DNA of 36,080 nt from a virus, in the IMG/VR virus record IMGVR_UViG_3300030117_000573, positions 1 through 36,080 of that record. One strand, written 5' to 3'. The notes under the pieces are model-generated. The model was not told where the DNA came from. It saw only the letters and a list, made by a program, of their open reading frames with translations, and made no database searches. Each line of letters begins with the position of its first letter. Position 1 is the stretch's first letter. A program made the position numbers and the translations under genes. Shown piece by piece: positions 4,597 through 7,612 of this stretch.

Positions 4597-6184
4597 ATCT
4601 TGTGAAGATTGTGGATCGAAAGATAACAAAGCAGTATACACAGACCATACGTATTGCTTTGGGTGTGGTAACTGGAAATCAAATGAAGGAGAACTTGTGA
4701 CTGTTACTAAAGAAATAAAAGGAATTATTGAGGGGGAGTATAAACATTTGAAAACTAGAGGTATATCTGAAGATATATGCAGAAAGTTTGGCTATCAAGT
4801 AGGACAATACAAAGGTAAGTTTTGTCATATAGCTAACTATAAGAATCCAGAGGGAGAAGTGGTAGCTCAGAAGTTACGACTTGAAGGGAAGAAGTTTTCT
4901 TGGGTAGGTGATACTGAGGGCATCGGGTTTTTTGGTCAACATATGTGCCGAGAAGGTGGGCGTTTTCTGATTGTATCAGAAGGCGAACTCGATGCTCTTA
5001 GTATTGCTCAAGCCTTCAATGGAAAAGCTAGTGTAGTCTCTCTTAGTCATGGAGCTAATTCAGCTTCTAAAACATTTAAGAAACACATAGAGTTTTTATC
5101 TACATTTGATTCTATTGTTATATGTTTTGATGATGATAAACCTGGAAGAGAAGCAGCGAGTGAATGTGCTTTGTTGTTAGAACCAGGGAAAGCAAAGATT
5201 GTAACAGGTCTACCAAACAAAGACGCTAATGAATGTCTTATGGAAGGCAACATTAAAGAGTTAGTGTCTGCTATTTACGATGCTAAAGTGTATAGACCAG
5301 ATGGTATTGTAAGTGGTGATGAACTTATACAAAGATTATTAGAAGACAAAGAAGTTGAATCAGTCCCTTACCCTTGGCAAGGACTACAAGATTTAACTCA
5401 TGGTATCCATCAACATTCTATGGTTGTTCTTTGTGCAGGAACAGGTGTTGGTAAAAGTTCGGTGTGTCGTGAGTTAGCTTATTGGTTAATTAAGAATGAC
5501 AAGAACGTAGGGTATATTGCTTTGGAAGAATCTATAGCTATAACAGTTAGGGGAATGATTGGGTTGCACCTAAATTCAGCACCATATCACCATAAGTTTA
5601 CCGATGAAGAATTATCGGAAGCATTCCACGATGCAAACTTTGATAAAAAATTAGCACTTTATGACCATTTTGGTTCAATTCAATTTGAGAACTTACTGTC
5701 AAAGATCCGATATATGCATAGACAGATGGGGTGTTCTCATTTGTTTTTAGATCACTTGTCTATAGTAGTCTCAGGTATTGAAGGAGATAACGAGAGAAAA
5801 CTTATAGACGTAGCGGTGACGAAACTAAGAATGCTTGTTGAAGAATTAGGTATAACTTTATTCTTGGTGTCACAGCTAAAACGACCAACAGGAGACCGTG
5901 GCTATGAAGATGGAATGGATGTTAGTATTAATGCTCTTAGGGGGTCTAGCAGTATTGCACATGTTGCCGACCAAATTATTTCCTGTTCCAGAAATGTTAC
6001 CGATGAAGAACATGGAAACACCACTAGTATACATGTCCTTAAAAACAGACATAGCGGAACAGTTGGATACGCCTGTAAACTCAGGTATGATAAAACAACA
6101 GGAAGACTTACAGAACAAGGTGGAGTTGATTGGACTCCACAGGAACAGGAAGATGTACATGCAATATCCTCGATCCCTTTTTGA
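4556..6184 (+). CDS. T7 gp4-like DNA primase-helicase
   Basis: A 542-aa bifunctional replication protein (T7 gp4A: 566). The N-terminal zinc ribbon has Cys16, Cys19, Cys34 and Cys37. The Toprim primase core shows SEGELDAL (Glu142, Asp146) and CFDDDKPG (Asp192-194). The DnaB/RecA-like helicase has a Walker A GTGVGKSS with Lys300, a Walker B LFLDHL, the SQLKR block and the LRGSSSIAHVADQ motif. It would unwind the fork ahead of the polymerase and make primers. The start ATG 4556 lies inside the RusA gene and is preceded by GGGAGG. A short gp4B-like form from an internal start is possible but not shown. Confidence 0.96.
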   Translation: MDHELNSSSFLRHESCEDCGSKDNKAVYTDHTYCFGCGNWKSNEGELVTVTKEIKGIIEGEYKHLKTRGISEDICRKFGYQVGQYKGKFCHIANYKNPEGEVVAQKLRLEGKKFSWVGDTEGIGFFGQHMCREGGRFLIVSEGELDALSIAQAFNGKASVVSLSHGANSASKTFKKHIEFLSTFDSIVICFDDDKPGREAASECALLLEPGKAKIVTGLPNKDANECLMEGNIKELVSAIYDAKVYRPDGIVSGDELIQRLLEDKEVESVPYPWQGLQDLTHGIHQHSMVVLCAGTGVGKSSVCRELAYWLIKNDKNVGYIALEESIAITVRGMIGLHLNSAPYHHKFTDEELSEAFHDANFDKKLALYDHFGSIQFENLLSKIRYMHRQMGCSHLFLDHLSIVVSGIEGDNERKLIDVAVTKLRMLVEELGITLFLVSQLKRPTGDRGYEDGMDVSINALRGSSSIAHVADQIISCSRNVTDEEHGNTTSIHVLKNRHSGTVGYACKLRYDKTTGRLTEQGGVDWTPQEQEDVHAISSIPF

Positions 6185-6512
6185 AGCAATCCGACAAGTT
6201 GAAACTGGTGGAGAAAAGAATCCATCAGAAGCAGTAGGTGATGGTGGTTTAAGTATTGGTCCTTACCAGATATCAAAAGCATACTGGCAAGATGCAATTA
6301 TGCACCATCCTGAGATTGGTGGGACGTATCAAGACTGTAAGAAACAACATTACTCAGAGTGGATTATGATGTCGTACTGGGATCGATACGCTAAACCTGA
6401 TTGTTCTTTGCAAACATTGGCAAGAATACATAATGGCGGACCAAAGGGTCATACCAAAAAAGCAACTTTAAAATATTGGAACAAGGTGGAGGCTTTACTT
6501 GGATCAGGGTAG
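6153..6512 (+). CDS. destabilase / i-type lysozyme-like endolysin
   Basis: About 119 aa. The layout matches invertebrate-type lysozymes: QVETGG with Glu17, then GDGGLSIGPYQI with Asp30, SKAYW, and near the C-terminus ARIHNGGPKG and LKYWNKV. In animal i-type lysozymes the catalytic pair is a Glu and an Asp at just these positions and spacing, and the HNGGP block is a family hallmark. It would hydrolyse peptidoglycan at lysis and takes the place of the T7 gp3.5 amidase. It has no signal peptide, so release would need a holin, and far fewer cysteines than animal members. Start: ATG 6153 with AGGA upstream; ATG 6159 is equally good. It overlaps the primase-helicase gene by 32 bases. The family call is from motif recall only. 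Confidence 0.75.
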   Translation: MYMQYPRSLFEAIRQVETGGEKNPSEAVGDGGLSIGPYQISKAYWQDAIMHHPEIGGTYQDCKKQHYSEWIMMSYWDRYAKPDCSLQTLARIHNGGPKGHTKKATLKYWNKVEALLGSG

Positions 6513-6708
6513 ACACTTAACTTGGAAAGAGATTGCTGAGATTATTACGGAGTCTGAAAGTGAGCAGGGGACTTCTATAACGGCTCAAGGTTGCCATGAT
6601 TTGCACAAACGAATGTTGAGAAGATTAAGAGATCAACTAGAAGACGATCCAATTATTCAAGAATGGTTGAAACAAAACCCGACAAGGATAATGATGAACC
6701 ATGAATAA
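6499..6708 (+). CDS. small sigma-region-4-like helix-turn-helix protein (copy 1)
   Basis: A 69-aa protein starting at TTG 6499, with GGTGGAGG seven bases upstream; no ATG is available. The pattern TWKEIAEII, then SITAQG, then KRMLRRLRDQL resembles region 4 of sigma70-type factors, where a helix-turn-helix is followed by a basic helix ending in KLR or RLR. A second protein with the same layout is encoded at 30473-30724; both end in a DP(I/L)(I/V)QE(W/Y)L block. A role in DNA binding or in redirecting host transcription is inferred, and it is too short to be a full sigma factor. It overlaps the lysozyme gene by 14 bases and the methyltransferase gene by 8. Confidence 0.6.
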   Translation: MDQGRHLTWKEIAEIITESESEQGTSITAQGCHDLHKRMLRRLRDQLEDDPIIQEWLKQNPTRIMMNHE

Positions 6709-7612
6709 ATTAAAAGTATTAGATTTGTTTTCTGGTATTGGCGGATTTAGTTTAGGTCTAGAGTGGACTGGTGGATTTGAAACGGTAGCTTTCTGTGAGA
6801 TTGAAAAGTTTCCTCAACAAGTTTTAAAAAAGCATTGGTCACATGTACCTATTTATTCAGATGTGAAGGAATTAACTTATGAAAAACTTAGAGCAGATGG
6901 AATTGTTCGACCAGACATTATCACAGGAGGATACCCATGCCAACCTTTCTCAGTCGCAGGTAAACAAGCTGGGGAGAGAGACAAAAGACACCTCTGGGGA
7001 GAAATGTTTAGACTTGTCAAAGAGTGTAGACCGTCTTGGGTTATTGGAGAGAATGTTAGTGGACACATTAAACTCGGTCTCGACACCGTACTCGATAACT
7101 TGGAAAGCGAAGGCTACCAAGCAAGGACGTTTAGTATTTCAGCGAGCAGCATTGGTGCGTGGCACAAAAGAGAAAGGGTCTGGATTGTGGCTAACTCCAA
7201 GTGCAACACAAATAAGCACACGCTCAAAGGATGCACTAGAAAAAAGGAAAAAATATCGAACAAGTATAGGCAGAACAACAGTACCGCCAGGGAATCTTGC
7301 AGAACAAGTTCAATACGGGAAAGCAATAACAAACATGATGTTTCCAACTCCACGAGCAGCAAAAGGGATGAACATGAGATTGACGGAGGGCATGGCGAAT
7401 TTGAGACACAAGAAATATCTAGAGACAGAAGTAGCCTACTTGGAGAAAGCCCCTGGTGGTTATCTGAACCCAACGTGGGTAGAGTGGTTGATGGGTTACC
7501 CAATAGGTCACACAGAATTAAAGCCTTAGGTAATAGTGTAGTACCACAGATACCTATGCTTATAGGTGAAGCTATTTTAAAAACCATTAAGGAGGAATCA
7601 TGCACACACTAA
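6701..7612 (+). CDS. DNA (cytosine-5) methyltransferase
   Basis: A 303-aa C5-MTase that would transfer methyl groups from SAM to cytosine, probably to shield phage DNA from restriction. Motif I is DLFSGIGG near the N-terminus, motif IV is PCQPFS with catalytic Cys80, motif VI is ENV (117-119), motif VIII is RERV (157-160) and motif X is GNSVVP (277 on), preceded by the usual RIKAL. The part between about residues 166 and 250, where the target-recognition domain should be, is rich in Lys, Asn, Ser, Arg and Glu and does not look like a folded domain. The same DNA is open in the +1 frame (6879-7529), with more protein-like content. AAGGA lies about 12 bases before the ATG, and the 3' end overlaps the polymerase gene by 13 bases. 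Confidence 0.92.
   Translation: MNKLKVLDLFSGIGGFSLGLEWTGGFETVAFCEIEKFPQQVLKKHWSHVPIYSDVKELTYEKLRADGIVRPDIITGGYPCQPFSVAGKQAGERDKRHLWGEMFRLVKECRPSWVIGENVSGHIKLGLDTVLDNLESEGYQARTFSISASSIGAWHKRERVWIVANSKCNTNKHTLKGCTRKKEKISNKYRQNNSTARESCRTSSIRESNNKHDVSNSTSSKRDEHEIDGGHGEFETQEISRDRSSLLGESPWWLSEPNVGRVVDGLPNRSHRIKALGNSVVPQIPMLIGEAILKTIKEESCTH
6879..7529 (+). CDS. overlapping +1-frame ORF inside the methyltransferase gene
   Basis: A 216-codon ORF, fully contained in the C5-methyltransferase gene but read one base later. It has its own AAGGA eight bases before the ATG. Its content is not random: ITWKAKATKQGRLVFQ, then GSGLWLTPSATQ (Gly100 to Gln110), then MFPTPRAA, and LNPTWVEWLMGYPIG (196 on). I recall these signatures from phage and metagenome proteins annotated as methyltransferase-related or hypothetical. 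The RVWIVANS block of the methyltransferase and the GSGLWLTP block here are two readings of the same bases, as are GRVVDGLP and WVEWLMGY. It could be a real overprinted gene, a frameshift product, or a widespread database artefact of conserved methyltransferase DNA. Confidence 0.45.
   Translation: MKNLEQMELFDQTLSQEDTHANLSQSQVNKLGRETKDTSGEKCLDLSKSVDRLGLLERMLVDTLNSVSTPYSITWKAKATKQGRLVFQRAALVRGTKEKGSGLWLTPSATQISTRSKDALEKRKKYRTSIGRTTVPPGNLAEQVQYGKAITNMMFPTPRAAKGMNMRLTEGMANLRHKKYLETEVAYLEKAPGGYLNPTWVEWLMGYPIGHTELKP

Follow-up and report, generated by a model that had tools for sequence, protein, structure and literature searches.

The gene for the large subunit of M.EcoHK31I also encodes the small subunit, in an alternative reading frame. 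PMC3404938, which cites Lee, Kam and Shaw 1995 for this enzyme (YGGCCR), describes it as naturally split: the larger polypeptide contains motifs I–VIII and X, and the smaller one contains motif IX. The predicted target-recognition domain (TRD) is placed there in the larger subunit. The same source describes M.AquI (CYCGRG), a two-gene enzyme split within the variable region, with motifs IX and X in the small subunit. An out-of-frame HNH endonuclease within phage methylase genes, a homing insertion element, is reported from ShiLan (PMC11855218). PHROG lists phrog_363 and phrog_1008 as separate families, both named 'DNA methyltransferase', and the returned descriptions do not mention an overlap between them.

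We analyzed a window of 36,080 nucleotides of phage DNA in which two overlapping ORFs, alpha and beta, match these two families. As in M.EcoHK31I, the ORF of the proposed small subunit lies in an alternative frame within the gene of the large subunit and has its own start; alpha carries motifs I–VIII and X, and beta carries a motif IX-like segment, with an exact placement of modest score. The two systems are likened by their descriptions. Unlike M.EcoHK31I with its predicted TRD in the larger subunit, here the TRD segment of alpha is predicted to be disordered and is near-neutral, and the beta frame is constrained. A further difference is that this is a phage gene, and no restriction gene was recognized among its scanned neighbors. 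Likewise, none is annotated in the examined stretches near the closest E. coli prophage enzymes, which have the same layout. The locus resembles M.AquI, another split C5-methyltransferase in which a second polypeptide holds part of the specificity region. It differs from M.AquI in that motif X stays in alpha and does not join motif IX in the small subunit, and in that the subunits overlap by 651 bases in different frames. In contrast to the HNH endonuclease of ShiLan, beta is no insertion and accompanies every complete alpha of this split family. The initial annotation had pointed out two meaningful frames; going beyond it, we consider that they are most likely two subunits of one enzyme, with M.EcoHK31I as the precedent.

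The methyltransferase locus and its two frames

The phage in the window is T7-like and encodes an integrase, a primase/helicase, a DNA polymerase and an RNA polymerase of the single-subunit type. The integrase gene (phrog_1) at 139–1167 adjoins the T7-like RNA polymerase gene, and a search for tRNA genes in the window found none. The methyltransferase is located between the helicase region and the DNA polymerase. The start of the DNA polymerase gene (ATG at 7600) overlaps the end of alpha with its stop (7600–7612), an arrangement suggestive of translational coupling 3' of the methyltransferase. The ORF at 5898–6512 overlaps the end of the primase/helicase by 287 bases as listed and has no PHROG match. 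Judged by eye, its C-terminal part resembles a lysozyme or transglycosylase, and therefore the ORF probably starts further downstream than listed.

The two ORFs of the methyltransferase locus were confirmed exactly at the positions given in the initial annotation, with beta in the +1 frame of alpha (Table 1). Profile searches matched alpha to PF00145 (8e-42), phrog_363 (1.5e-79) and TIGR00675; the PF00145 match stops at profile position 216 of 324. Motifs I, IV (PCQ), VI (ENV), VIII (RxR) and X of C5-cytosine DNA methyltransferases are all in alpha and nearly invariant. The region near the N-terminus is motif I in the established naming of this family. C80 is nearly invariant in the alignment and falls on the PCQ motif of M.HhaI. 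Using hhalign, motif X was placed directly after motif IX of the canonical C5-methyltransferase profile, and helices are predicted in residues 281–300 with a mean pLDDT above 90. Motif I (before 6879) and most of motif X lie outside beta, upstream and downstream of it, and the GNSVV part of motif X is encoded 3' of the beta stop. In the predicted structure of alpha the catalytic core and motif X are confident, and residues 171–266 are disordered. The predicted fold matches M.HhaI with a Z of 23 over 209 residues and an rmsd of 2.8. The TRD and motif IX are not in the same chain as the catalytic motifs, and alpha is a C5-cytosine DNA methyltransferase in split form, not a single-chain enzyme.

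Table 1. Features of the methyltransferase locus (positions in the window)
Feature	Position	Strand	Details
Alpha ORF, C5-cytosine methyltransferase catalytic subunit (motifs I–VIII and X)	6701..7612	+	303 aa
Alpha motif I region DLFSGIGGFSLGLE, SAM binding	6719..6763	+	columns D8–E21 nearly invariant
Beta Shine-Dalgarno site AAGGA	6866..6870	+	within alpha K-E codons; 8 nt 5' of beta ATG
Beta ORF, proposed target-recognition and motif IX subunit	6879..7529	+	+1 frame, 216 aa, ATG
Alpha motif IV GGYPCQPFSVAG	6926..6961	+	catalytic Cys80 at 6938–6940
Alpha motif VI, E117-N118-V119	7049..7057	+	invariant columns
Alpha motif VIII, HKRERVWIVAN	7163..7195	+	H155, R157, R159 invariant
Variable target-recognition segment of beta (approximately residues 107–194)	7196..7460	+	exchanged between close relatives
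Alpha residues 171–266, linker without folded TRD, out-of-frame read of beta TRD	7211..7498	+	pLDDT <50 throughout
Beta motif IX-like segment LNPTWVEWLMGYPIGHT	7464..7514	+	hhalign placement on canonical C5-methyltransferases
Alpha motif X RSHRIKALGNSVVPQIPMLI	7502..7561	+	hhalign to canonical C5-methyltransferase profile; predicted helices

Beta matches phrog_1008 at 1.3e-25, far above chance, and profile searches found no relative of it in Pfam, NCBIfam or PDB. A solved fold was found neither by profile search nor by a fold search with the beta-only model. That model is poor (pTM 0.24), and because of its low confidence the fold search is uninformative. The word patterns that had drawn attention to the +1 frame turned out to be real family motifs: the beta alignment shows TW[RK]xKxTPxGRL, LWxTPxA and LNPTWVEWLMG[YF]P as conserved patterns, with M205 and G206 invariant. 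The bases stated to be shared by RVWIVANS with GSGLWLTP, and by GRVVDGLP with WVEWLMGY, are indeed the same.

When the profiles were compared with canonical C5-methyltransferases, alpha fell on their motifs I–VIII and X. A motif IX-like segment was found only in the +1 frame of the locus. The best hhalign placement of this segment coincides exactly with motif IX and precedes the place of the alpha motif X; the score of 21.05 (E 0.085), reached by 1 of 100 column shuffles, is modest and weak on its own.

Beta was also said to have its own Shine-Dalgarno sequence. It is present, and it is conserved in relatives. Of the 90 loci whose upstream sequence is long enough, 84% contain a match of at least 5 nt before the beta start, typically AAAGGAG. 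Such a match occurs in 27% of synonymous shuffles and at 11% of random positions.

Distribution of the overlapping pair and selection in both frames

Loci were gathered by searches with beta, with alpha and with beta profiles, and they were counted when both profiles matched. Beta lies over alpha in the +1 frame in 321 of 321 such loci (283 distinct beta ORFs), which come from phages, prophages, plasmids and bacterial genomes. Among them, no beta is separate from alpha, in the frame of alpha or without alpha. Two beta profiles and single proteins, searched against viral contigs, bacterial genomes, phages and plasmids, did not reveal a standalone beta gene; an apparent one in phage P AB-2017 is a locus cut by the start of the record. 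Among the loci retrieved through alpha alone, beta is present wherever an alpha of this split family is complete; only truncated contigs and four canonical single-chain enzymes lack it. The phage loci with the pair include those of Paenibacillus, Lacticaseibacillus, Vequintavirus, Kagunavirus, N15, epsilon15 and marine podoviral phages. The pair is also present in E. coli prophages, in a plasmid and in genomes or MAGs from many phyla. The family phrog_363 takes in the alpha of the window and that of N15, and phrog_1008 is matched by the beta of the window, of Paenibacillus phage Tadhana, of K1ind1, of Lacticaseibacillus phage R9.1 and of Bas48.

Some loci deviate from the common layout. In L132 (2253–3016) and L214 (2679–3688) one indel joins the catalytic part of alpha in frame with the motif IX of beta and puts motif X in another frame; L214 has an additional stop inside beta. 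Gene decay, sequencing error or natural partial fusion may explain these two loci. In L011, L018, L021, L047 and L050 the beta ORF extends well past the alpha stop or is unusually long (308–577 aa), and it may have an extra C-terminal part. The target-recognition segments are enlarged in L074, L105 and L111 (alpha about 500 aa, beta about 400–450 aa), possibly as double TRDs. Two Citrobacter amalonaticus plasmids (NZ_CP083652.1, 5389–5568, and NZ_AP024586.1) contain a match to beta residues 104–160 only, with 50% identity. It sits under no gene or under another gene and is possibly a remnant of a TRD segment.

The annotation of the pair varies. Records of phage K1ind1 and of Paenibacillus phages call both CDS, and in the Tadhana record the two can be seen to overlap. 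The annotators of P. larvae phages list two DNA-cytosine methyltransferase products in one phage. The literature searched gave no explanation of 'Mte8-like', the name of beta in K1ind1. Only alpha is annotated in N15, epsilon15, Bas48 and E. coli prophages. Long same-strand overlaps are usually penalized in gene calling, as stated for P. larvae phages, and because of this the specificity half is unrecorded in most of the genomes examined, including N15, epsilon15, P2-like prophages and the BASEL phage Bas48. Our literature search, partial in coverage, found no description of the alpha/beta overlap in phages.

The beta frame contains no stops in 39,901 codons, that is, it is open in 167 of 167 complete loci. 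Synonymous-codon shuffling of alpha gives an expectation of 1,269 stops, and only about half a locus in the whole set would be open by chance. The observed beta HMM score exceeded every shuffle in all 167 loci, including 70 outside the HMM training set; the shuffles retain part of the score (a median of about 74 of 236 bits). In canonical single-chain C5-methyltransferases, the corresponding +1 frame has 6–57 stops.

Selection was estimated from 39 independent pairs by a simplified, OLGenie-like counting scheme. The dN/dS of beta was 0.34 (0.27–0.42) where alpha changes and 0.23 (0.12–0.36) where alpha is unchanged, and that of alpha within the overlap was 0.46 and 0.31. The unused +2 frame, taken as a control, gave 1.47 and 0.97; since the counting scheme is simplified, all these ratios are approximate, and they matter mainly through their contrast with the +2 frame. 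The synonymous divergence of alpha is 0.63 outside the overlap and drops to 0.23 within it (SN class). Thus, both frames are under purifying selection. The constraint is reciprocal by segment: in the catalytic part the dN/dS is 0.11–0.17 for alpha and 0.40 for beta, in the TRD part it is 0.85 (0.75–0.99) and 1.2 (0.33–2.9) for alpha and 0.27 for beta, and in the motif IX part it is 0.14 for beta and at most 0.35 for alpha. Together with the predicted disorder of alpha, these values bear out the earlier remark that the TRD region resembles protein more in the +1 frame than in the main frame.

The initial annotation would have regarded the +1 frame as an artefact if its homologues were confined to places where a methyltransferase frame overlaps them and if it evolved neutrally or with frequent stops. 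Its homologues are confined in this way. The frame is neither neutral nor rich in stops; therefore, beta is not an artefact but a conserved protein.

Exchange of the target-recognition segment

We compared the window with its two closest relatives, L081 and L004. Within 7196–7460 the DNA identity to both is 46–47%, and in the flanking segments within the gene it is 84–99%. For L081 the identity is 98% upstream and 97% downstream; in between, it is 98% where alpha alone is encoded, drops to 92% in the catalytic overlap and to 46% in 7196–7460, and rises again to 84% in motif IX and 96% in motif X. L004 has a similar pattern within the gene. As one would expect of a specificity module, the variable segment has been swapped as a cassette without closing either frame. 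Because the beta-only model is poor and no solved fold matches it, the assignment of the TRD to beta relies on position, selection pattern and segment swapping.

Alternative explanations and the proposed enzyme

Three options had been offered for the +1 frame: overprinting conserved across phages, a frameshifted product, or a database-wide misreading of methyltransferase DNA. The first of these is right. If the similarity of the +1 frames were a by-product of alpha conservation or of misannotation, one would expect beta homologues only where alpha overlaps them and a beta score partly retained by synonymous shuffles, and both are seen. The lack of stops against the 1,269 expected, the scores above all shuffles, and the purifying selection in beta against values near or above 1 in the +2 control contradict a misreading, and beta is constrained where alpha is unconstrained. 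This explanation is extremely improbable. A functional fusion of the alpha N-terminus with the beta C-terminus, made by slippage on the A-runs near 7230–7250, is very unlikely. The window does contain AGAAAAAAGGAAAAAATAT in this place, and the indel in L132 and L214 puts the catalytic part of alpha in frame with the motif IX of beta. The A-rich run proposed as a slip site is missing from L081 and L004, the closest relatives, and no conserved slippery site was found. Frameshifting is also unlikely because motif X is in the alpha frame past the beta stop, and a single shift would give an incomplete enzyme. A −1 slip from alpha would enter the +2 frame, not beta. The Shine-Dalgarno sequence and start of beta are conserved, and selection acts on residues 1–106 of beta, yet a shift near the TRD would never express these.

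It is also conceivable, although we regard it as unlikely, that beta is a real conserved protein other than the TRD subunit (a regulator, chaperone or anti-restriction protein) and that alpha works alone with a highly degenerate TRD. No solved fold is detectable for beta, about half of it (residues 1–106) overlies the catalytic part of alpha and not the TRD, and the predicted TRD of M.EcoHK31I is assigned to the alpha-type subunit in PMC3404938. Against such a role of beta, the TRD segment of alpha is disordered and near-neutral, the motif IX-like end is present in beta and missing from alpha, the segment swapping falls exactly at the TRD position, and beta is never seen without alpha. A two-subunit C5-cytosine DNA methyltransferase with overprinted subunits, organized like M.EcoHK31I, is very probably the right explanation of the locus.

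In such an enzyme, alpha would bind SAM and bear the catalytic cysteine and motif X without a folded TRD. Translation of beta would be initiated in the +1 frame of the shared mRNA at its own internal Shine-Dalgarno sequence and ATG. Beta would contribute the TRD and motif IX and thus recognize the target sequence, and alpha would catalyze. The two chains may assemble as a heterodimer into the equivalent of one ordinary enzyme, for which both subunits would be needed. A DNA swap between motifs VIII and IX would alter the specificity module of beta, and the only part of alpha replaced would be a near-neutral linker. The phage, T7-like and integrase-bearing, probably uses the enzyme to methylate its DNA at one sequence and so to protect it from restriction by the host.

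Naturally split C5-methyltransferases are already known, but the spread of this layout and its lack of annotation seem to be under-appreciated. On balance, we lean towards the view that phage and prophage C5-methyltransferases across bacterial phyla have a major form, ancient and largely unannotated, in which two subunits are overprinted and the specificity subunit is in the +1 frame of the catalytic gene. According to this view, a recombined cassette between motifs VIII and IX renews the specificity and is tolerated in the catalytic frame, where it reads as a disordered linker, and the N-terminal half of beta originated when the catalytic domain was overprinted. The locus is a clear case of simultaneous purifying selection on two frames, over about 650 bases and with the constraint split by domain. 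Annotated 'orphan methyltransferases' expressed from a recoded alpha frame would lose beta and appear inactive. The locus also suggests, in a testable way, how specificity modules could be exchanged within overlapping genes.
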